NCBI GenBank assembly: GCA_964019695.1
Contig: OZ026516.1
Coordinates: 96,596,368-96,660,367 of the forward strand
DNA from: Loripinus fragilis
Taxonomy: Eukaryota > Mollusca > Bivalvia > Lucinida > Lucinidae
Direction of reading: 5' to 3'
DNA: 64,000 bases
The notes beneath the pieces are model-generated. The model had not been told where the DNA came from and did not search any database. It saw only the letters and a program-made list of their open reading frames with translations. This document shows, piece by piece, positions 2,771-48,242 of the stretch (the first letter of the stretch is position 1; every line of letters starts with the position of its first letter). Both the position numbers and the translations under genes were made by a program.

Positions 2771-2971
2771 GTAAAACTTGTGTAAAACGGCCACTCAAAA
2801 ATAAACAAAACAATGATCTTAATGACAAATGGTAGCTTAATGAAGGTCAAAGTATTGCAGAATGCTCCCCTTGGAGCATTCTGCAATACTTTTGACCTGC
2901 ATTAAGCCATAATTGGTCTTGAAAAACGATTTTCAGTCTTTTTAGAGTGGTTGTTTTACACAGGTTTTACT
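2771..2971. mobile_element. Palindromic MITE (family C), interrupted by the hAT element
   Basis: This is a near-complete palindrome. AGTAAAACTTGTGTAAAACG at the left is mirrored by GTTTTACACAGGTTTTACT at the right, and the centre is GCAGAATGCTCCCCTTGGAGCATTCTGC. The first bases (from 1825) sit left of the hAT insertion. A full copy is at 60000-60212 and a half copy at 62392-62500. Confidence 0.85.
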
Positions 2972-3061
2972 TTATATGGAAAAGAGATAATAAGCAAGAT
3001 GGATCAGTATCATTTCTCCAAAAGACTTTTTCATGAATATCTTCAGATGATTCATACTAAC

Positions 3062-3142
3062 CTTGTCCATGGCACCTGGGTGAGCTGCCGCTACAAAGCC
3101 AAACAAACCAGATTCGGTATAATTAACATTTAAACCTTGAAT
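3062..3142 (-). CDS. UQCRC2: UQCRC2 exon 10 (last one visible)
   Basis: An 81-nt, phase 0/0 exon between TTTATTTCAG and GTTAGT. It encodes IQGLNVNYTESGLFGFVAAA then HPGAMDK, matching 'FNASYSDSGLFGI' and its surroundings. No continuation (K.LKAG, 'EE.G.Q.L..GS' or the C-terminal helix) is recognisable between 1 and 3061, so later exons should lie outside the window. Confidence 0.9.
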
Positions 3143-6100
3143 CTGAAATAAACAAGGCAAATTTGTTGATGTGTATAGTCGCATGGGTGAAAGTTCAAAA
3201 TTTCCAATATCCTGAACTTTAGAAATTCAAGTTTTAAAACCTGCAGGATACCTACAAAAATGAATAATTTCATGTTTAAATGGTTAGTTGTGTTCAGATA
3301 ATCTTAAAATAAATCAGAGAAGCTACTGTAATCTCTCTAATTCAGCATTTTGAGGATGACTTTCTTTGGAAAGTCAGCCTCAAAATCCTGAATTCAGGAT
3401 TAATCCTGAAAACTTTCACCCATGTGCTCTTAATATGCATTTCAACTTTCAACAATATTCAGTCGGATCACCAGGGTCAGTTATTCAGGGCTGGCTTCTC
3501 ATTTTGATGGAATATCCTGTACACTTTGATACAATAAATACAGCATTTTCCATTTTATAGCTTACAGGCTTGCTGGCCCAATTTTTTATCAAATGATCCA
3601 TTTATGCCCAAAGTGATTGTTTTTTTATCTTTAACAGTAAACAGTACAGACCCTGATGAAATCTAGTCTTATGCAGCATTTCATCTGGGTCTTCGCTGTT
3701 CTGCAGATGAAATGCCACCTTATGCGGCATTTCATCTGGATCTTCACTGTTTCTGCTGATAAATTGCCACCTCATGCGACATTTCATCTGGGTCTTCGCT
3801 GTTCTGCAGATGAAATGCCACCTTATGCGACATTTCATCAGGATCTTTACTGTTTCTGCTGATGAAATGCCACCTTATGCGACATTTCATCAGGATCTTT
3901 ACTGTTTCTGCTGATAAAATGCCACCTTATGCGACATTTCATCAGGATCTTTACTGTTTCTGCTGATAAAATGCCACCTTATGCAACATTTCATCAGGAT
4001 CTTAACTGTTTCTGCTGATAAAATGCCACCTTATGCAACATTTCATCAGGATCTTTACTGTTTCTGCTGATAAAATGCCACCTTATGCAACATTTCATCA
4101 GGATCTTTACTGTTTCTGCTGATAAAATGCCACCTTATGCAACATTTCATCAGGATCTTTACTGTTTCTGCTGATAAAATGCCACCTTATGCGACTTTTC
4201 ATCAGGATCTTTACTGTTTCTGCTGATAAAATGCCACCTTATGCGACATTTCATCAGGATCTTTACTGTTTCTGCTGATAAAATGCCACCTTATGCGACG
4301 TTTCATCAGGATCTTTACTGTTTCTGCTGATAAAATGCCACCTTATGCGACATTTCATCAGGATCTTTACTGTTTCTGCTGATAAAATGCCACCTTATGC
4401 GACATTTCATCAGGATCTTTACTGTTTCTGCTGATAAAATGCCACCTTATGCGACGTTTCATCAGGATCTTTACTGTTTCTGCTGATAAAATGCCACCTT
4501 ATGCGACGTTTCATCAGGATCTTTACTGTTTCTGCTGATGAAATGCCACCTTATGCGACATTTCATCAGGATCTTTACTGTTTCTGCTGATGAAATGCCA
4601 CCTTATGCGACATTTCATCAGGATCTTTACTGTTTCTGCTGATGAAATGCCACCTTATGCAACATTTCATCAGGATCTTTACTGTTTCTGCTGATAAAAT
4701 GCCACCTTATGCGACATTTCATCAGGATCTTTACTGTTTCTGCTGATAAAATGCCACCTTATGCGACATTTCATCAGGATCTTTACTGTTTCTGCTGATA
4801 AAATGCCACCTTATGCAACATTTCATCAGGATCTTTACTGTTTCTGCTGATAAAATGCCACCTTATGCGACGTTTCATCAGGATCTTTACTGTTTCTGCT
4901 GATGAAATGCCACCTTATGCGACATTTCATCAGGATCTTTACTGTTTCTGCTGATAAAATGCCACCTTATGCGACATTTCATCAGGATCTTTACTGTTTC
5001 TGCTGATAAAATGCCACCTTATGCAACATTTCATCAGGATCTTTACTGTTTCTGCTGATAAAATGCCACCTTATGCGACATTTCATCAGGATCTTTACTG
5101 TTTCTGCTGATAAAATGCCACCTTATGCAACATTTCATCAGGATCTTTACTGTTTCTGCTGATAAAATGCCACCTTATGCGACGTTTCATCAGGATCTTT
5201 ACTGTTTCTGCTGATGAAATGCCACCTTATGCGACATTTCATCAGGATCTTTACTGTTTCTGCTGATAAAATGCCACCTTATGCGACATTTCATCAGGAT
5301 CTTTACTGTTTCTGCTGATGAAATGCCACCTTATGCGACATTTCATCAGGATCTTTACTGTTTCTGCTGATAAAATGCCACCTTATGCGACGTTTCATCA
5401 GGATCTTTACTGTTTCTGCTGATAAAATGCCACCTTATGCAACATTTCATCAGGATCTTCACTTTCTGCTGATAAAATGCCACCTTATGCGGCATTTCAT
5501 CTGGGCCTTCACTGTTTGCTAAAACACCTGCTTAGTGGTATCCAGAATGAAAAGGGTTAACCACTTTAACAGTGGGTCGTGTATGCATACTTCTATCTGA
5601 TCCTCAAAACTGCCCTACTTGAATTGCAGGTAGGGAGAGAATAATATCCATGAAACTATACATGTGAGAGGACTGGGGTTCAAACTCCTGATAGGTGGCA
5701 GTGGCTCAGTGGTAGAGTGCTTGTCTCGAGACCAAAGGACCGCCGGTTCGAGTCTCACAGGCGTCACTGCATTGTGGTCCTTGAGCAAGACACATTTATC
5801 CTAGTTAGGTACTGGTTCAACCCATGAAGACCCGTTCCTATATAAATGAAAGATTGTTGATGGGACGTAAAGACTCAAATCAAACAAACAAATCAAACTC
5901 TTGACCCCCCTCCCTATATTGCAATCCATAGAAGTCAAATTATCATTCAGACTTGCTACCAACTACAGTAGATACATATGTCTTGATGAATAGGTTCTTA
6001 GAGTTATTGCACATTTAAGTTGTACTGGAAAAATGGGTTTCTCTAAAAAAGTTGCCCAAAAATGTATAACATTGGGACAATGTCAAGTTTAAGCAAGCAT

Positions 6101-9100
6101 CCAGAGAATCTGCATATATATATATATATATATTTATTTATTTTTGGTTTGATTCTTTATGTCCCAGTCAACAGCTATGGTCATGTCGGGAAGGTCAGAT
6201 CACCTAACCACACTATTTTCCTGGGCACACTTGACTAAGCAGTTAACCAGTACAGTACATGCACATACTTTGGCTTGTAACTGATAACAATCCTTCTTGA
6301 ATCAACCGAAGGGAAGAGAATGGTTGTAGAAATGATTTAATGATCAATCTCCATGAAAGTATGGGACCGGGCCAGGATCCAACTTGCTACTCCTAGCTCT
6401 GCAGTCGGGCATGTTACAAACTGCGCTATGCAGCCCAGTAGATTTTAAGTCTATTCATTGGTGACATTTAAATATCAATATGGGATCATTACTTTGATGA
6501 ACTGTGTGGATCCTGATTTGGATCTACATATTTTTAAATGACGGTATAGAATTTGGAAAAAATATGGACAAAATGCATTTATTAGATTTAATATGGTGAA
6601 AGTGTTTTTTTTCACTTTCTGAGATAAACACAAATTTTTAGTGTAAAATTGAGATTATTTCCTTATTTCCTTATCCATCTGTTAACCCTTTACTCAATGA
6701 TAACACCTTTTTACGCCTTTGAAATATCATGCATTTGAAAATATTATGGAAAATGGAGCATTTGCTCTTTTGGAGCAAATGCTACATTTCCCATAATATT
6801 TTCAAAAGAATTCAAAACTTGACTTAAATTTTTCCAATGTTTTCTAAAAATAGAAATCAGGTCCATGACCTAAAAATAGCCAATGGAGTAGCTCTGATTA
6901 TAAAATGTATTTATTGTTTTCAAAAGAACTGTCACCTAGACAGTTCTTTTGAGTACCCACAACATATGTTTTCCCTGAGAAAGAAGAAAATTAAAGGACC
7001 TCTGACAGTGGTAATGGGAATCACAATGTATCGCTGCCTATAATTTTGATAAAAACTAAAGTCATTCAAATGCTTCCATCTTTATATCTTTTTAGCTCGC
7101 TGTTGGTCTCTATTTTATGATTTTGCATTTGATTTGCTATTTCCATGAATGTACGGCTTTATTTTGGGGCTAAAATGGTCACTTTTTGTATTATACATAT
7201 AGGAAATAGAAAAATATTTTTAAAACATCTTTTCTTCTGCTTTGTCGAACGGATCTGCCTGTCTAATTATAACCTTAATTCGTTCCTAATACATCAAGCA
7301 TCCTATTCAAAAGAATACCAGCGATATAACCTTAATTCGTTCCTAATAATCAAGCATCCTATTCAAAAGAATACCAGCGATATCTTATGCATAGGGAAAA
7401 TTCGGGAAGCATCTGAAAAATAGGCAGATACCCTATCAAAGTGTCAGAGGTCCTTTGATTACGACTCTGATCTGGTGGGATATCAAGTATGATGAAACTT
7501 TTGTAAAGAATGAGAAGAGTAAAATTTACATACTGAAAAAGGACTATCGACTGCTTTAGCAACTGCCTGTGAAAGCCGGGAACTGGATAATCCCTGACTG
7601 TATTTCATATGTGAACCGGTTCCCATAATCATCTGCAGGACACCAGCAGCAAGAACATCTTTACTGGCCATGCTGAAATAAGACATCAGTATATACCACA
7701 GGTTTAGATAAACAAAATTTTTGATCGTAAAATGGTAAATAATTTCTTACGCCTCAGTTTTAACATATGTTTTGGGTGCTCAAACGAACCATCTCATTGA
7801 GACGGTTCTTTTGAGTACCCACAACATATGTTTTAGTTGAGAAATAAGAAAAATATTTTCTTGGTCGCACTCTTAACTTAAGGCCAGATATACTATATAG
7901 TCTATAGAGTATAGTCTATAGTATACAAAGGCAACCTTTTATAACAAGGTCAAACAATCAGATAATTTAGAGATCATTAAAGACAGAAAATCCAGTTGTT
8001 CCTGTTTTTTTCTTCAAAGCAATGCTTTTTATTCTTAGTTCTACCATATCCATCCTATTAAGCACAATGTGACATGTACGAAATTTAAAAAAACTAGAAA
8101 TGTGTCCATGGGACACGGATGCCCCCGCTATTGCCAATTCGCATAAATAGGGCATTGTCAATCAACAAAGGGCCATAACTCTGATAATAATTGGTGGATT
8201 TTATTAATAATCGAACTTGACCTGTATTTTATGATTATATACCTGTGTATGAAATATGAATCCAATACACCAATGTATTCAAAAGATATCGCCCAGAAAC
8301 CATTTTTCATACGGAGATCAAGGGCCATAACTCTGATAATAATTGGTGGATTTTATCCGTAATCGAACTTGACCTGTATTTTATGGTTATATACCTTTGT
8401 ATGAAATATGAATCCAATGCACCGATGTATTCAAAAGATATCGCCGGGAAACCATTTTTCGTACCGAGACCAAGGGCCATAACTCTGATAATAATCGGTT
8501 GATTTTGTCCGTAATCGAACTTGACCTGTATTTAATGATTATATACCTGTGTATGAAATATAAATCCAATACATCAATGTATTCAAAAGATATTGCCCGG
8601 AAACCATTTTTCGTACATACGGGACAGGACGTACGGGACGTACGTATGTAGGGACGTTCGGACAAGGGTGATGCTATATGCACCCCCCCCCCATTATAAA
8701 TGGCGGGGGCATAAAAAAAATCACATCAGCTTTTTAAAAAGACCAGATGGTCAATTTTGGTTGAAAAAGACATTTTCTCTCTGCATGATATTCTGAGCCA
8801 AGTGGGATTTTTCTTTTGATAAATGCATCTGGCTGAAATATTTTACAACCAGTTTTTAAAAATAATCAGCCGAGCCCTCGACTAGAAGAAAAACAAGCCG
8901 TTTATAATCTTTCATTTGGAGGAAGGAAAACACAAACTAAACAACATATCTGTTTGTTTGTTTTACGTCCCAAGTCAACAACTATGGTCATGGCGGGATG
9001 GTCAGTTCACCTAACCACACTTTTTTCTCTGAACAAGCAGTTAACCAGTACTTCGTGCCCATACTTTTGCTTGTAACTGACAACAATCCTTCTTGAATAA

Positions 9101-18200: not shown

Positions 18201-21200
18201 AGGCATAAACTATTAAAAACATCCAGATCAGCTCAAAAGCCAGCTGATCAGGATCCACACTGTTTTCCACACAACAAGCCAGCTCATAACAATTATTGAT
18301 TTATGAAATAAAGAATTGTCTTAACTTTCTTTAAACTTGTCCCAGGGCAAGTAATTAGAAGTTTCCAAGTTGTGCTGAATGAAATGGGACCTGATCGAAC
18401 AAGTCAGGCACATGGTATTTCCACACCCCTGGTCAATAAATCCCAATACGTTGGGTTTTCAGTGAATTGTTAATTTGCTACAGCTCTTAATCAGGACTTT
18501 GGTTAATAGTGCGTAAGGGAAATTTAATTTTCTTATTTCTCAACCAAAACATATGTTGTGGGTACTCAAAAGAACCGTCTCAATGAGACGGTTCTTTGAG
18601 TACCCAAAATATACGTAAAAACTGATGGGTAAGAAAATATTTACAATTTTACACTGAAAGGTTTTGTTAATCTAAACCTGTGTCTTAATACTTACGAGAG
18701 GTTGCCGCCTGTCTGGTGTATCAGCTTTGTTAACTTGAATGCTGTCATGCTTTTATTGCTCTGTAAATATAAAAATGATATGAGCCGCGGCATGAGATTT
18801 CCAACAATGTGGTATGTGCAACCAGCAAGGCCTCAGATCAGCCTGCCCATAAGCGCGGTCTGATCAGAGGCTTTTCTATATATGAACATTTGGTACTTGC
18901 CTCATCAGGCCAGCCTGCAAATGTGCAGACTCGCCAGAACCTTCGCAGATCGCATACACAAAGTAGAGTTATAAAACAAGACTCAGACTTGTTTGTTTTG
19001 GTTTGAGGGGTTACGTCCCAGTCAGCAGCTATGGTCATGTCGAGACTCAGTTCACAGAGGAGAATGACGTATTATTTTATGATCGACAAAAGTATGAGAT
19101 CGGCCGGGATCAAACTCTAAACCCCTGGATCTGCATTTAGACTTGCTACCGACTTGACTCCCTATTGAAACAAATCCAGACAATCAATAGAGCCCCTACT
19201 GTAACTAAAGCCGTGGCATGAGATTTCCAACAATTTGGTATGTGCGACCAGCAAAGGCTCAGACCAGGCTGCGCATACCTGCAGACTGATCAGAGCCTTT
19301 GCTGGTCGCTTAAATATTCTATGACTGTTAAACTACTGACCGAACTCAGGGCTCCAGATAAGAGGGGGTAAAGGGTATTTCAGCATTGATTTTTTGGAAT
19401 TCAGCATTGAAAATTAAATTGAAGTGTAAAAATACCCTTTGCAGTTTGAGGTTTCAGTGCTGATATTCAATTTATGTGGTGAAATATTTTATTCTTAGTA
19501 ATAGTTAGAATAAACTAATTAATATACACCGATTGTATAAATCTTGGAAGTTTTCCTAAAAGCACAACATGTATTTGCAGGGTTTTACACCAAGTTGAAT
19601 GTTTGGGGGTCCCTGGGACTCAACTTTGATTATGATGGGGGTCCCGTCATTGAAAATGGGGGTCCCATCTTTTTATGTAGGCGTAGAATTTTGGGAGGTA
19701 GTAAATCCTTCCGTGAAGGGATTCGAACAGGCCTTAGCTGTCAAACAGGTGTACCAAAACATCAGGTCATTTTCGCATTTCAACCATTTGTAGCGACCTA
19801 GCCAGCCAGATAGGAATTTTCGATCTTTATTGGGGGGCTGGTTTTTTTAGAAGATTTGGACTGATCTCACTCTGAACAGCCGCTAGAGGATGGTTCTTGG
19901 TCCGTTTCTGCATTTCTTTTGCCAAAAAAGTTTCTCAGATCGCTCTGTTTCCACATTTTAGCAGCCGTTTTTTCTAGTCATTTACACGCTTGACCGTAAG
20001 AAAATCCAATAGGTTGACAAGCGTCTATGTTGATCGATAAATCAGAGCGGGTGCGAGACATGATGAGATTTCAAAGCGCCATAGCAACGCGAATTTGATT
20101 GGACTGTTTTGACACACCTTCCGATATTATTGGTTAAACGACAGCACCTGTCCTATTTATTTATAGATAGGCTGTAAATATGGGAAAAACCGAATCGTTA
20201 CGAAATAACTTTGGAATTTGGGATTTTAATGAAAGGCACAACAAACACGTCTGCGTCCCAGCGGACGCAGGTAAGGTAAATTGAGGGGTCCTACCTAATG
20301 ATTTATGCGTATAAGACGCAGGATATTGCGTCCTGTAAAACCCTGTATTTGATACAAGCAACTTTTCTTAAAAACATGTTAAGCAAATATTGGGTCTTTT
20401 TACAAGGCTTTGCATTTTCTGCAACTTGATATTTTAAATATGGAGTGAAATACTCATTAAATTAAACAGTAGGGGGTGAAATACCCATTGGTCCAGATCT
20501 TTATCTAGACCACTGCGAACTTCATTTGAGGTTTCTAAGCTTCAAAGGAGGCTGCACAGGCTCGTCTGAACCTACCCTTGTCAAAATACCACATTGTTTG
20601 AAATCACGCGTCACAACTCACTTACCAGCATGCCACTATGCCTCAGACAGTGTGATACTCCTTGATCTTCTGGTGCTTCATATCTTGGTCCTGCTCGTAC
20701 AACAATCCCTACCCTGCTGAGTGGAGAGTATGTTTCTACTGAAACACACTTAATATTCTTCACCTTGCTTACCTAAAAGTATAAAATGATCGTAGGTTTG
20801 GAAATGAAAAAGTTTCTAGAGTAAAATTATAATTTCTTATCTAACAGCTGTTTTGGGTGCTCATTGATTTGTTTAATTTGATTCTCTACGTCCCATCAAC
20901 AATCTTTCAGTAATGTAGGGACGGGTCTTCCTGGGTTGAACTAGTACTAAGCTATGATTAATCTGTCTTGCTCAAGGACACAACGCAGTGACGCTGGTGA
21001 GGCTGGAACCCGCGGCCACTCGGTCTCAAGTCAAGCACTCTACCACTGAGCCACTGCGCTCTCAAATATTGCTCTTATCTTGCAGGAAAAGTGACTTTCA
21101 ATTTTCACTGGTCCTGCAAACACATGCACTTGTCCTTTAAAAGCGCATGCAATAAAGAACATAAGGAAGTAATATGTAATATGACTTAAAAGTTTCACAC

Positions 21201-40249: not shown

Positions 40250-42175
40250 TAATCATGGTCGGCATGGCTTACGTTCATTTTTAAGTTCCTTGCCTATCTC
40301 ATTTCTACGTAATTTAGAGTTAGAGGCTAATAAACTTTATGATAGAGCTAACAAATTATATAAAGCAGCACTTCTTACAAGGTGTTGTGTTCAACAGTTC
40401 CTTAGTCCTTGTATCGAATCTGAGGTCAACCATAAACGACATTTTATCAAAATTCCAATCATTAACAAAGGTATGGAGTTTATTGATTTACATAGTGCTT
40501 ATCTTTAAGGAATTTCAGTGATTTCATCTATTCCAAATTACTTTAATAATTCTGAGTCCAATCATTTGCTATAAATATAACAAACCAATTAGGTCTTCTT
40601 TATTTAAATTTAATAAAGTTGTTACTGATATAAATATAGATTCCAATATTCCTGACTCCTGAGATTGTCAAAATTCTAATTACTCATATCCTAGCTCCTG
40701 CAGGGCATGTGATTACAGGTAATCTTAATGTCATTCCTGACGTTAGAGTTCGCAATGTTACCTTTAAAGGCCCTAAAAACAGATATCCCTCTAATATTGA
40801 TTTCCCTAAATAGGGTAGAGAGATCGCTGCTTCTTTAAATGACTTTAGTTACCGTTGGTGTAAGCGAGAACATGCTGAACCTGATGCCTTGAAGGAATTA
40901 AAGATTAACATTTTTAAAATTATTGATACTCATATTTCATTTTACTCTCGTAATACACAATTTTACCCCCTTAACCTAAATCTTCTTTTTGTCTTCTTAA
41001 ACGAGGTTTCCAGGATTTTCATATGAATTACGTTTTGGTTCCAGCAGATAAAACTGCTGACAATGTTGTAGTTGTTTGACGATTGTATTATATTAATACT
41101 CTTAAACGTTAGCTTGTTGACACCAATGCCTATAAACTGCAGCCTCCTTTGAGTGAGAGGGTGGTTGTCGATGGGCATGGTTGTCATATAGCCCTACATT
41201 TTGGCGTCAAAGCTAAAGAAAACCAAGGCAGAGTTTCTACGTTGTACTGGTTATCTAAACTCCGTAAAAACCTATAAAGCAAGATTTACTGCTAATTATA
41301 GTTCTTTCTTATACGACAACAGAGCTTTCTTAATTGTTAACCTCATGCCATATGTACAGCTGTTAAAACATGTTATCAAGTACTGTGAAAAGGTATATTA
41401 GAGATCCAGTAAAAATCTCTTTTGGAGTATTAAAAATTTAGATGAAATTTTAGATAAATTTAAAGCTAGAGGTTTCAATTCGACCAGCTTGTCTGCTTAT
41501 GATTTTTCTACTCTTTACACTACTTTACCTCATATTGTAATTAAAGATAATTATTGATTTTATTGAAAGACCCTTCAATAGAGGAGGCTATCCTGACCTT
41601 GCACGTAACGACAGAAACGCATTTTTACTTCGGAAAAAAACCTAAAAAGTATCATGCTTGGTTTTGTCAAAATGTATGTGATGCGCTGACCTTTTTGTTG
41701 CACAACACTTTTATTCGATTTGGCACCAAGTTGTAAAGACAAGTAGTTGGGATTCTTATGGAAACTAATTGTGCTCCCCTGTCCCTGTTTTGTTATGAGA
41801 GGGAACTTTTGATGTCTCTTTCTGGTGATAAGCAGAATAATATTATTGATGCTCCAGATGTTTGGACGATATTTTAAACATTAATAATGTTTATTTTGAC
41901 AATATGGTCAGTCAAATATACCCTTCAGAGCTTAATAAAACTAAAACCTCTGTTACCGAAGCCGCATTTTCAGACGTGCGTTTGTCAATTTCTAATGATA
42001 ATGTTTCTACCAAAATTTATGATAAACGTGACGATTTTGATTTTGAAATTGTCAATTTCCCATTTTTAGATGGTGATGTTCCTCGCTCTACATCCTATGG
42101 AGTCTATATCTCTCAACTCATTCGTTTTTCTTGGACGCCGTGGGATCGTCATGAGAACGTTGCTCTAATGTGATC
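40250..42175 (+). pseudogene. Decayed reverse transcriptase ORF, probably Penelope-like
   Basis: Successive frames give recognisable pieces of one polypeptide in order: GPKNRYPSNIDFPK, SFYSRNTQF, a VPADKTADNVVVV-type block near 41040, YDFSTLYTTLPH near 41500, and KIYDKRDDFDFEIVNFPFLD near 42020. 'DFSTLYTTLP' matches the first conserved RT strand of Penelope-like elements ('D..SLYT.IP'). At least five frameshifts or stops break it, so it cannot be made. Assignment to Penelope-like rather than another RT is from motif memory. The ORFs at 40290, 41201, 41554 and 41862 are its fragments. Confidence 0.6.
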
Positions 42176-42904
42176 TTATAGCTTATGCATATCTGAGCTA
42201 TATAAATTTAAATTTCTTTGAGCTTTAATTCTGTGATACTTACACATTTGCTGTGGTCATTGTGTGTATTGTGAGCAGTCTAGTCAAATCATGATAATCT
42301 CATGTACTTTTGTACGTCAGTGTTGAAAATTTCGTATTATCTCCAATGTATGCGCCAAAATATGGAATGCTCCAATATTTCATTTTATGGGGACTGATCA
42401 GCCTCAGGACTTTCATGGGTTATCCATGGGCTATAACTTCACTAGGTTTATTCATTTAACATTTTAAACAGTGCTACAAAATTATGTGATATATCACGGT
42501 TCAAAATTTAGCGTGTCTAAATGACTTTCTCCGTATTATATTTATGTGAATTTTAAATTGCATTATTGCTCTTGGAGCCGGTGCTCGAGTGAATAGCGAA
42601 TGCTTAAACGAGCCTGCACATTTGCAGAGTCTCGCCAGAGAGTTTGCTGCTCGCATATACAAATTTAAATTGCACATGCCATTTTGGTTCTATTTCTGTT
42701 AGGGCAATTTCATGAGGTTTTTTTTACTTATCCCATTTGCATTAATATACATGCATGCTCAGATAACTGTGGGGCTAGATGTGTAGATTTTGGCCCGAAA
42801 CTTCACATACAGTCTTCAAGACTAGAGTTTTTTGCTCTGTAAAAACAAGTGTAAATTTACATCATATTTTGTGGCAGCTGAACTGCCACTATATGCCTTG
42901 AGCT

Positions 42905-43465
42905 GGCTATAGACCCCCTCCCTCCCAGGGGGAATTTTGTACACTATGATTTTCTGAAACTACATTATATAATACACTAAAAATAGATGTTAGACCTCTG
43001 AGAGTGGCAGCTTTAACGTGTAACATCACGTCATATATGTTACCCACCGAAATAGCATTGAACGTCCCTGACAATGTCTCAACTATGGCATGTTCGTACA
43101 TATTTGCATGCTGACACAGGTTTATGAACTTCTTTTAACACAGTTACATATTTTTAGTATTAATTTTATAAATGTCTTGAATTATTACTGTTGTATACGT
43201 TACTTAGTGTTTCCTGTGTTATTTTCAAGTATCAGTATGGTAATTATTGACTATAATTATGTGTATTACATCTGTCACAGAATATAGCAAATCTATAAGG
43301 CTGCTACTTAAATGATATAAAATTCCTTATTATGGTCGATTACATTATTTTTCAGGCCCATGTTACGTATGTTACCCTCAAAATAGCATTAATAATTCAA
43401 GTCAATGTCTTTAACAAGCCCTGTTTATCTTTATTTGCATGCTGGCACAGGTTTATGTACTTCTT
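42905..43465. repeat. Left arm of a ~560-bp inverted repeat
   Basis: It starts TAGACCCCCTCCCTCC and contains TAACATCACGTCATATATGTTACCC and TGCATGCTGACACAGGTTTATG. It is the inverse of 46135-46690 with roughly 80% visible identity. Internally a ~390-base unit repeats (42980 and 43370 onward), each with a GTTAC(G/A)TATGTTACCC palindrome. Confidence 0.75.
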
Positions 43466-44229
43466 TTAACAAGGTTACATTTTTTAAGAATTCATTTAAT
43501 AAATGCATTGACCTTTAACTGTTATATGTGTTACCAAATGATACATACGTTATTTCGAATATCTGTATAGCAGTTGTTGACTATACATGTATTAAGTCTG
43601 TCAGTGAATTAAAAAAAATATAAGGCTGAAATAAATTGATGTTCCTTATTAATTTATGGTGATTTAAACTATTATTATAATGTGATCTATCAACCTTCGC
43701 TGTTTGCTCTCATAAACAGTAGATACCATGCATTCATATTGGAAGTTCTGAAAGACAGTCACTGTGAAACAGCTCAGTTCTGGCAAGGAATATGGATATA
43801 ATTCAGATGGTGTTGACACTGATTAGGGCTACAAGGAAAACAACTTTGAAATGCATGTCAGCTCTATCTGTATGCCTTGTTCCAGATGTTCATTGCAAAC
43901 GACCACAGCGACGACGCATCATATGTACCTGTGTAACTGATAACACTCATAAATTTGTCTGATACACATAAAAGATGAAAATAACTTCTGCAACAAAATG
44001 GGTTTAGTGTGTCACAATCATTGGTTCTTTGCTTGAGAAATGCTTTTGACATAACTATAAGACAAACAATTAACCCTGTGCCAAGTCAAAGGAGGTATTA
44101 TAGGCTCCAGCAGCTAAAATTACGTTTCGTACTACAGATGGAATGGTGTATTACTCATCACATCAGAGCTCAATATGTTGAAACAACTCTTCATTGCACT
44201 GAAATGAAATATCAAATCTGATCAGATGC
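43466..44229. other. Spacer inside the inverted-repeat locus
   Basis: A second diverged internal copy of the arm unit to about 43610, then unrelated sequence. ORFs at 43864-44221 have no recognised motif. Confidence 0.4.
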
Positions 44230-45060
44230 AATGTAGAACGAGTACTAGAGGCAGTTTCTGGCTTCACCAATCCTTTTAGTTCTAGTTTTGAAGACAACGA
44301 ACTGTACTTTTTGTCTTTCCTGCTAAGCCTGGCATAGCTAAGGATCTTATTGAGGCTGATGACATTGGCAGGAATGCTGTTGCAGACTTCATTGATTCAC
44401 TTTTAGTTGAAAATCTGTCTTTCACGACCCCATAAAATACTACGAGCTATTAAACTCTTGAGGCTTGCGAGGTCAAGAAGAAATTGTCCAATTTACAAAC
44501 GTAATCAGCCAGATGAGAGCTTAAAGGAGAGTCTTTGGTCAGCATGACCTTCTTTCTATTGGCCATAATGTTGACCTTGAGTTGACACTGCCGTTCCTTC
44601 TGGGACCTGTACCATGGTCACTGTCAACTCCTGATAGAATTCCCACCAAAACTGACAAGTCCAAACTTCCGCATGGCTTGTTATCACACATTGAACTAAC
44701 ATTAGATTGGCCATGTAGTGCTGCACATAACTTTGATGGTAATGCCATACTACAGAGCATATAGCTTTTCATGTCACCTTCAAGGATCTGACGGAACACG
44801 TATTCAACCAGGCACTAAAGGCAGGGCATGTAGGTGTTGTCACTGATACATATATACAATGTATAAGCAGCAGTCTATAAAGCCTTACAAGCATTCTCAC
44901 AGAGTTGTTCAACACTGGTGTATGCAACAAAAGGTGCTCCTTCTGAATGTCAACAACATTGGCCAGAATATGCAGTCATGCACTGTTTAACAGATTGTGA
45001 CACTCTCAATGTGCCAGTGTGTTAGTACCACGGAAAGGTTGTTCCTATCAAACTGATAGA
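44230..45060 (+). pseudogene. Decayed ORF of a multicopy invertebrate protein family of unknown function
   Basis: The plus-strand frames read SGFTNPF, KDLIEADDIGRNAVADFIDS and HDPIKYYELLNS, then LPFLLGPVPWSLSTPDRIPT and KTDKSKLPH, then AAHNFDGNAILQSI, and finally GHVGVVTDTY. The order 'TNPF... LG/IG..A...F...L... PLSWSL.TPD..P.KTDKSKL..... DGNA..' matches an uncharacterised protein type I recall from coral, fish and mollusc genomes. Several stops and frameshifts break it. It sits between inverted arms, so it may be cargo of an undescribed mobile element. Function is unknown. Confidence 0.5.
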
Positions 45061-45444
45061 GACCCCCTCCGTACTAATTCATCTACGTTCTAAGCAGGGT
45101 TGGAAACCAAAGAATTTATCTAGGCACTCATTAGTGACATGAAGCCCTAACATTTGCTATTTATATAAATGTGAACAAGTTGCAGTACCACATGTTTCTG
45201 AAAAAGTACCAAAGCCATAAACATATACTGACTTTTTCAAATGGCATGAACATGAGCTTACTTCCACTCTGCTTTTCCGTCCTTGAGATGTACACACAAA
45301 GTTTGAACTATCAAGTCTTTCCCATGAAAACAAGTAAGGCTTTCTAGATATGGACAAAATGTCTGGAAAACAAATGGGAAGGAAATCGAGTACCTCTGGG
45401 TGAAAAAAAACTTGATTGTACCCTAACAAAAGAGCCACAGAATT

Positions 45445-45790
45445 ATATTTCACATTTTGCTTGATATGGGGTTACCATGTTCAAAACTAAACAACTCAAA
45501 CCTTATAAAAGATAGAAACATAATATTTGCAGTTTCTAAAAGGTACATAAACATTCTTTAATACAAAATGAATTAGTAAGCACATTCACATTAAAAAATA
45601 TCAACCTATATTAGATTCATAAATCATTTATATAGGAATAATGAAAAAAATGTAACATACGTAACACTTGGGGTGCATATTTGTTTTCAAAGGTCCATAT
45701 ATGTGATGCAAAAGTAGCTTACTTAGATGATATAGCAAATTTGGAAATCTTACCTTACTGTATGCACTTTCAGAAGTCATGTCATTTACT
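45445..45790. repeat. Direct repeat, copy 1 (~345 bp)
   Basis: TATATAAGATAGAAACATAA-type and CTTACTTAGATGATATAGCAAATTTGG segments match 46715-47065 in the same orientation. Both copies contain TAACATACGTAACA/TAACATACACTAG near the middle. Confidence 0.75.
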
Positions 45791-46134
45791 AAAATTATCA
45801 AAGATGTTGGCTGTTACAAGGTAATGGTGCCATTACCAGAGTGCGAGCATATTGCAAAATCCCTGCAAGATGAATCTGATAGAGGATTAATAAACTGTAT
45901 TGTAAAAGTCTTTAAACTTTTGGATAATATATGAAGAATTGTTATCTTGGCAAGAAACAGCTCTATAACTTCTACCTGGTGGGTTTTCTTTGATCTTTTA
46001 AGTTGTTACTCACATATTGCACTGCATGCTACAAACTTTCCCTGAGTATAATGTTAACTATATTTGATGTCTCTAAAGAAAAGAGGGTTTATGGTAGTTT
46101 ATGTTTTGAGTTACTTCCTCAGCAAATGAGCCAG

Positions 46135-46690
46135 GGTAAAAAGAAGTACATAGACCTGTGCCAGCATGCAAATAAGTACAAGCAGGTCGTGTTTGAGACA
46201 TTATCTTGAACGTTCAATGGTATTTGGAGGGTAACGTAAGTAACCTGGACTGTTAACATAGTGTACGACACCATAATAAGGAGCTTCAATTCATTTGAAT
46301 AGCAGCCTTTTAGATTTGCTATATTAATGTAATACATGTATAGTCAATAACTGCCATACTGATACTTGGAAATAACATATAAAACACTAAGTAACATATA
46401 CAACGGCAAAAACTCAAGACATTTATAAAATGAATGCTAAAATATGCAACTGTGTTATAAGAATGTCTTAAACCTCTTCCAAATTTCAAAAAGTGTGAAA
46501 ATGTCATGTTGGAGACATTATCAGGAAAATTTAATATTATTTTGCGGGTAACGTACGTAACGTGATGTTACATGCTAACGCTGCCACTCTTAGAGAGCTA
46601 ACATATTTCATTTCGTGACTTAAGTTATGTAGTATTAGGATATTGTAGTGTACAAATTCTCCCTGGAGGAAGGGGGGTCTATAGCCAGTG
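46135..46690. repeat. Right arm of the ~560-bp inverted repeat
   Basis: The reverse complement starts TAGACCCCCCTTCCTCC and matches 42905-43465 along its length, including GTTACGTACGTTACCCGC and GCATGCTGGCACAGG. The short minus-strand ORFs here are shadows. Confidence 0.75.
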
Positions 46691-46714
46691 CAAGGCCTAG
46701 AGAATAACATTTGA

Positions 46715-47065
46715 CATTTTTGTGTGATATGGGGCTATCATGCTCAACATCTAATAACTCAAAAAGTATATAAGATAGAAACGTAATGCTTGCAGTTTTG
46801 AAAAGGTAAATAAAATTTCTTTAATATAATACCAAATTAATGAACATAAACAGGTTTCAATAAAATCAAAGACAAACTATATTAGATTCATTATTATTTA
46901 AAAGGTGGTTCAATGAAAAAATGTAACATACACTAGATCGGATGTGACTATATTTGTTTCCAACGGTCTATATCTGTAGCCCAGTAATAGCTTACTTAGA
47001 AGATATAACCAATTTGGAAATCTTACCTTATCTTTTGCACTTTTCTGAAGTAGGGTAACATATGT
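46715..47065. repeat. Direct repeat, copy 2
   Basis: The same orientation and content as 45445-45790, ending TTGCACTTTTCTGAAGTAGGGTAACATATGTAACAGG. It forms the outer right part of the locus. Confidence 0.75.
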
Positions 47066-47084
47066 AACAGGTTGTTGATTGTAT

Positions 47085-47262
47085 CGACTCCTGATCTTTG
47101 CACCCTTACTTACTTTGTTGTCAGTCAAGCGAAAGTATGTGCACAAAGTACTGGTAGACCGCTTAGTCAAGCTTGTCCAGGAAAAAGTGTGTTAGATAAA
47201 CTGACAGTCTCGACATGATCATAGCTGTTGACTGCGACGTAAAGCATGAAACCAAACCACAA
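47085..47262 (+). mobile_element. tRNA-derived SINE family 2, 5'-truncated, plus strand
   Basis: TCAGTCAAGCGAAAGTATGTGC through GACATGATCATAGCTGTTGAC to GACGTAAAGCATGAAACCAAACC. It is the opposite orientation to the other copies, and the tRNA-like head is missing. Confidence 0.7.
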
Positions 47263-47984: not shown

Positions 47985-48072
47985 TTGTCAACCCGAGAAC
48001 AATGATGTTCACCGAGGCTTCGCCTCAGTGAACATCACTTTCGAGTGTTGACTAATCCTGATGTTAACCGAA
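47985..48072. repeat. Hairpin (~42-bp arms)
   Basis: GGTTAACACAAGGATTTGTC and TGATGTTCACCGAGGC are mirrored by GCCTCAGTGAACATCA and GACTAATCCTGATGTTAACC with a three-base loop TTC. It is a foldback element of the TTAAC type. Confidence 0.8.
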
Positions 48073-48242
48073 CCACACTAATTGTTTTGTTATATGACAC
48101 TGTCTCTGTTCCTAGTTTTCTAGTTATAAATTTACTCAAGTCAGATGTTTTAGTGCACTTTCACTAGGATGATTATTTCAACAATCTACTCCCCAAATTT
48201 CTGGAACTCTTTTAATGAGATAGCAAAATAATTGCATTTTTA

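Follow-up and report, generated by a model that had tools for sequence, protein, structure and literature searches.

A decayed remnant, truncated on the right, of a non-autonomous cut-and-paste transposon family in the bivalve Loripinus fragilis, most likely of the Academ superfamily

We examined the structure that begins at 42892 and breaks off near 47074 in a 64-kb stretch of Loripinus fragilis DNA (hereafter, the window: 64,000 nucleotides; assembly GCA_964019695.1, contig OZ026516.1, positions 96,596,368 to 96,660,367 of the forward strand). It is very probably a decayed copy, truncated on the right, of a non-autonomous family of cut-and-paste DNA transposons, most likely Academ/AcademX. 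The original prediction, drawn from the letters of the window, put forward a candidate mobile element of an undescribed kind, i.e., a pair of inverted arms, direct repeats and repeated palindromes around an uncharacterised open reading frame (ORF). The arms were recovered by self-alignment as inverted copies (42889-43470 and 46136-46702; 76.9% identity over 584 columns, E 4e-119), as were the direct repeats (45439-45777 and 46701-47051; 73.7% over 353 columns). The palindrome GTWACRTAYGTWAC, at ≤1 mismatch, was present five times in the window, all within the element, compared with 0.2 expected from resampled sequence, and chance occurrence was rejected. The peptide that had been quoted for the ORF is encoded within 44230-45060, where the frames are broken by stops and frame changes; the remnant as a whole is larger, 43721-45094.

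The source assembly (1.99 Gb in 685 contigs) was searched with the left arm. First-look candidates numbered 3,645; the 40 that were scored had 89-100% identity, and 10 kb was fetched around the 20 best loci (of 39 besides the window), a sample biased to window-like copies. The left arm was joined to DNA matching part of the window ORF region in 20/20 loci, and the inner inverted arm followed in 18/20 (the exceptions were L011, where the copy leaves the fetched stretch, and L019, which has a deletion), so that the parts seen in the window do travel as one mobile unit. Copies start TAGGCCTTGAGC at the equivalent of 42892, with unrelated flanks further left, and extend about 135 bp beyond the window break, ending ...CCAGTGGCCTA; the general terminal form is TAGGCC... 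on the left and ...GGCCTA on the right, and the two ends pair as an imperfect terminal inverted repeat of about 50 bp. The boundaries first drawn were accordingly moved. The window copy has kept its left end, reading TATGCC where the majority of copies read TAGGCC, and is truncated on the right; a right terminus was not found within the window.

Of the 20 loci, 17 had both ends identified; a further element, L030, brought the total to 18 pairs. An exact 3-bp target duplication stood directly outside both ends in 15 of these, whereas random re-pairing of the flanks in 2,000 trials gave on average 1.5 identical 3-bp pairs and never more than 7; these are the sharp-ended copies with target duplications that the original prediction had proposed to look for. 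L010, L013 and L020 did not fit a 3-bp duplication among the 18; in L013 the two flanks (gtgaagcccc / ggggttcac) read like inverted copies of one another. At ≤2 mismatches the right terminus gave 1,960 genome matches and the left-end sequence 2,731 (0 for either pattern reversed), the latter count including some inner copies, since the inner arm also matches in the window and in 3 of the 18 elements. On contig C1, a sample chosen without regard to likeness to the window, 66 of 88 perfect left ends had a correctly oriented perfect right end downstream within 20 kb, the reverse order being seen once; 45 of the 66 end pairs spanned 4.2-4.6 kb (median 4,395 bp). Two of the 66 were short (1,850 and 2,815 bp), possibly shorter derivatives of the family. 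With terminal inverted repeats, a duplication of fixed length and many dispersed copies, this is a cut-and-paste DNA transposon.

The two arms were first taken for the two ends of the element; the right-hand arm is instead internal, about 545 bp inside the right end of complete copies. Of 17 such copies, 15 had its end 541-548 bp short of the right terminus; in L014 the distance was 501 bp, and in L019 the arm was not found. Near-identical sequence, GAGAATTACATT or a close variant, followed it each time. L030 is laid out in the same way, with directly repeated right-end modules on either side of a reversed left-end copy. A composite could be imagined in which the true transposon is 42892-46699, with inverted arms of about 570 bp, and 46702-47074 is a neighbouring insertion; the terminal sequence does recur in the inner arm, as GGCCTA at 46694-46699. 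The near-constant distance and junction in the complete copies, the target duplications, which pair the outer ends, and the length of most C1 end pairs, which includes the outer piece, make this very improbable, and the arms were rejected as true termini.

A 73-residue piece of the ORF gave 235 relatives at E ≤ 1; this search admits proteins of at most 128 residues (1.75x the query), so the shortness of the relatives is uninformative, and the 25 that were read were fragments running into other frames at various places. A longer read-through query matched proteins P0121 and P0122, and when 7,998 candidates were scored against P0122, 90 proteins (P0122 among them) reached E ≤ 1e-5. The named ones (Pinctada imbricata, Nucella lapillus, Elysia crispata and an Actinostola anemone) are annotated as hypothetical or uncharacterised only. 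Structure prediction gives relatives with unbroken frames an RNase H/DDE domain and a FEN/XPG-type nuclease domain within one protein of roughly 1,500 residues. The DDE half matched the folds of the P element (nearest), ISCth4, Hermes, RAG1 and Transib, and D180, D346 and E597 are conserved in it; the window copy has lost that part. The P element was the best solved fold and Hermes among the best, at 5-8% identity in the fold alignments, and the likeness to P element and hAT (Hermes) extends to a large helical insertion that precedes the catalytic glutamate. Pfam gave no family at cut-off over the catalytic parts in the proteins scanned, and no useful match for the window pieces or for P0121/P0122; against solved structures, one alignment gave 0 matches and a second gave four weak matches to Exonuclease 1 (E 0.22-0.94). 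Foldseek alone on the DDE half was unproductive, as was scanning a 100-bp stretch for promoters and terminators, which says little for animal DNA, and among viral contigs 11 pattern matches yielded 0 confirmed relatives. Of 8 proteins scanned, P0191 and P0209 alone passed the PF03638 (CXC) cut-off, and the Pfam scan found no CXC domain in the elements L029 or L035 (see below). DUF6589 (PF20231) was pre-assigned to 4 of the 90 relatives (P0145, P0147, P0155 and P0191) and fell below its cut-off in three of these, the ones covered by the scan; no paper in the library searched joined DUF6589 with "transposon".

The window ORF is a remnant of the element's own transposase, not an unidentified cargo; its region aligned with the DNA of L030 at 74.5% over 1240 columns. 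L030 has the termini of the window family, a target duplication (CTA) and most of the transposase, without residues 444-616 and with one stop. Of 11,594 candidates, 36 were scored, and none of these was an unbroken transposase belonging to the window's own sub-family. Stop-free frames of 1,569 codons were found at C9:5274270 and C2:77751027, respectively 60% and 59% identical to the relative P0123. The C9 element (L029) is 7,801 bp with target duplication TTA, and its C2 twin, for which the two ends and one inner piece were fetched, has CAA; identity between the two was 100%, 98.9% and 99.75% in stretches of 167, 187 and 1,201 bp, respectively. This lineage has moved recently. Two more distant families of the same genome are represented by L034, with 588-bp inverted ends (92.9%; 1395-1980 / 7309-7887), TAG ends and duplication ATT, and by L035, with inverted ends of about 145 bp, TAG ends, duplication TAT and an unbroken transposase-like frame of 1,629 codons (2796-7682) that has a cysteine-rich C-terminus and no Pfam match. 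The 3-bp duplications of L029, its twin, L034 and L035 were read by eye. A host gene family captured by, or lying between, unrelated inverted repeats might be suspected from the uncharacterised annotations in, e.g., Pinctada and Nucella. The homologues with long frames in this genome (unbroken in L029, its twin and L035; in two pieces in L034) are, on the contrary, each part of an element that has inverted ends and a 3-bp duplication, and the predicted fold is that of a transposase; a captured host gene is hardly credible and was rejected.

Residues 1-649 and 1088-1202 of P0123 had no match in any of the 17 complete copies or the window (tblastn, E ≤ 0.01), and these regions contain the DDE residues D362 and D528 and the nuclease residues at 1153-1187. 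With both catalytic centres deleted in these copies, the family is non-autonomous. The absence of any visible transposase motif, remarked on in the original prediction, is explained by this deletion together with decay of the ORF. Because the loss is common to these copies, they probably multiplied after the deletion, presumably mobilised in trans by enzyme supplied from elsewhere. Mean pairwise identity of 13 such copies and the window was 91%; distance from the column majority was 2.5-5% for 12 of the 13, 18% for L019 and 7.2% for the window.

In 20 elements (the 18 with both ends, L029 and the window) the palindrome occurred 107 times at ≤1 mismatch, compared with 0.2 expected. Among the 19 elements having both ends, 16 had a site at a distance of 135-148 bp from the left one and 17 had a site 135-150 bp from the right one. 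The suggestion that the palindromes are recognition sites gains from this placement, and the 14-bp palindrome about 141 bp inside the ends is probably a binding site for the transposase. Its position and sequence may be held by selection, since they are common to the window family and L029, although the L029 transposase has only some 60% identity with the P0123 type. Against generality, L034 and L035 are without the palindrome at ≤1 mismatch, so the site is not superfamily-wide. Perfect palindromes of another kind, AACCTATATAGGTT and TTTAAGATCTTAAA, occupy mirrored positions in the ends of L034. Palindromes of Academ elements were not named in the titles or abstract starts of matching papers, and may still be published.

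Zisupton, hAT, P and Novosib elements make an 8-bp target duplication, which was absent in all 18 end pairs; Kolobok duplicates TTAA, and P element and hAT transposases are not known to have a FEN/XPG domain. The Academ superfamily and its AcademX lineage were reportedly set out by Kapitonov and Jurka in 2010 and by Kojima in 2020; we take the Academ nuclease to be of XPG type, and the transposase presumably carries a Cys8 finger. According to one paper, AcademX makes 3 or 4 bp target duplications and the two Academ lineages encode helicase and nuclease (PMC10045372); a bivalve study gives a mean Academ length of 5,565 bp (PMC10294476). Rather than being of an undescribed kind, as had been supposed, the element is most likely a member of Academ, lineage AcademX, an assignment made by description, on the 3-bp duplication, DDE transposase and FEN/XPG-type nuclease, with element size a further likeness. 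It differs from AcademX, as known here by description, in that the right end contains an inverted left-end copy and that palindromes stand at a fixed distance from the ends. KolobokP likewise has a DDE transposase with an accessory nuclease, and repeated end modules of several hundred bp, but the nuclease is of His-Me finger type and the ends consist of direct repeats that have short inverted repeats of their own (PMC9587614).

Some points weigh against Academ: the lack of a Pfam family over the catalytic parts, the P element as nearest DDE fold, and a comparison whose Academ side is a description and not a sequence. They would suit a different superfamily, perhaps an undescribed one, that independently combined a DDE transposase with a FEN/XPG nuclease. 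This is improbable, given that AcademX is described as encoding a nuclease and making duplications of 3 or 4 bp (PMC10045372). The CXC domain of two relatives may also correspond to the Cys8 finger of Academ.

Table 1. Coordinates of the transposon remnant and its parts within the window.
Feature	Position	Strand	Basis
Non-autonomous DNA transposon remnant	42892..47074	+	colinear with 20 loci of the same genome, segments mostly 85-90%
Left terminal inverted repeat	42892..42941	+	left motif found in 19/20 loci and L030; partner repeat at right ends
Left inverted arm	42889..43470	+	self-alignment against 46136-46702
First tandem module, left arm	43036..43303	+	73% to 43368-43628
Second tandem module, left arm	43368..43628	+	self-alignment
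Decayed, internally deleted transposase ORF	43721..45094	+	tblastn: P0123 residues 665-1057 and 1235-1272
Internal copy of right-end module	45439..45870	+	self-alignment; extent to 45870 taken from genome copies
Internal inverted copy of left end, not a terminus	46136..46702	-	position in complete copies
Truncated right-end module	46701..47074	+	self-alignment, genome copies
Degenerate palindromic site, 138 bp from left end	43030..43043	+	2 mismatches to stricter pattern
Palindromic site	43362..43375	+	≤1 mismatch
Palindromic site	45652..45665	+	≤1 mismatch
Palindromic site	46231..46244	+	≤1 mismatch
Palindromic site	46548..46561	+	≤1 mismatch
Palindromic site	47055..47068	+	counterpart of site 141 bp from right terminus in complete copies

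Several features of the surrounding window sequence were recorded. Broken frames at 41000-42175, adjoining the transposon, look by eye like a decayed reverse transcriptase; the 41850-42170 piece of these had no Pfam match. A repeat of about 140 bp lies just outside the truncated right end (47115-47256), with four more copies in the window near 6143, 8959, 16752 and 31672. A tRNA-like Rfam match at 20989-21060 on the minus strand (34.9 bits, above gathering score) is possibly part of a SINE (short interspersed element), and 48010-48075 reads like a small inverted-repeat element (CACCGAGGCTTCGCCTCAGTGAAC hairpin).

The history proposed for the family is that internal deletion took out the nuclease core together with the first half of the DDE domain but spared both ends, after which the family probably multiplied on enzyme made elsewhere. 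Dimers of that transposase would bind the 14-bp palindromes inside each end, and the extra palindromes in the duplicated end modules would be bound too; the bound transposase would then synapse the two ends, the DDE domain would cut at the terminal TAG and join the element to target DNA with a 3-bp stagger, and flaps or hairpins might be processed by the nuclease domain. More generally, and as a tentative suggestion that we hold to be rather doubtful, the ends of this clade could be modular palindrome arrays bound by a transposase with two nuclease centres, in which DDE joining and FEN/XPG end opening or trimming are performed by one polypeptide.

As a feature of the genome this is an ordinary high-copy transposon, ordinary in kind and with an interesting end architecture. 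The analysis gives a predicted identity, DDE transposase plus FEN/XPG-type nuclease, to a protein family that in molluscs and a sea anemone is named only hypothetical or uncharacterised, and supplies candidate recognition sites and recently moved copies with which to probe what the second nuclease of an Academ-like transposase does. If the suggestion of two nuclease centres is true, it would represent a two-enzyme mechanism of transposition within one polypeptide.
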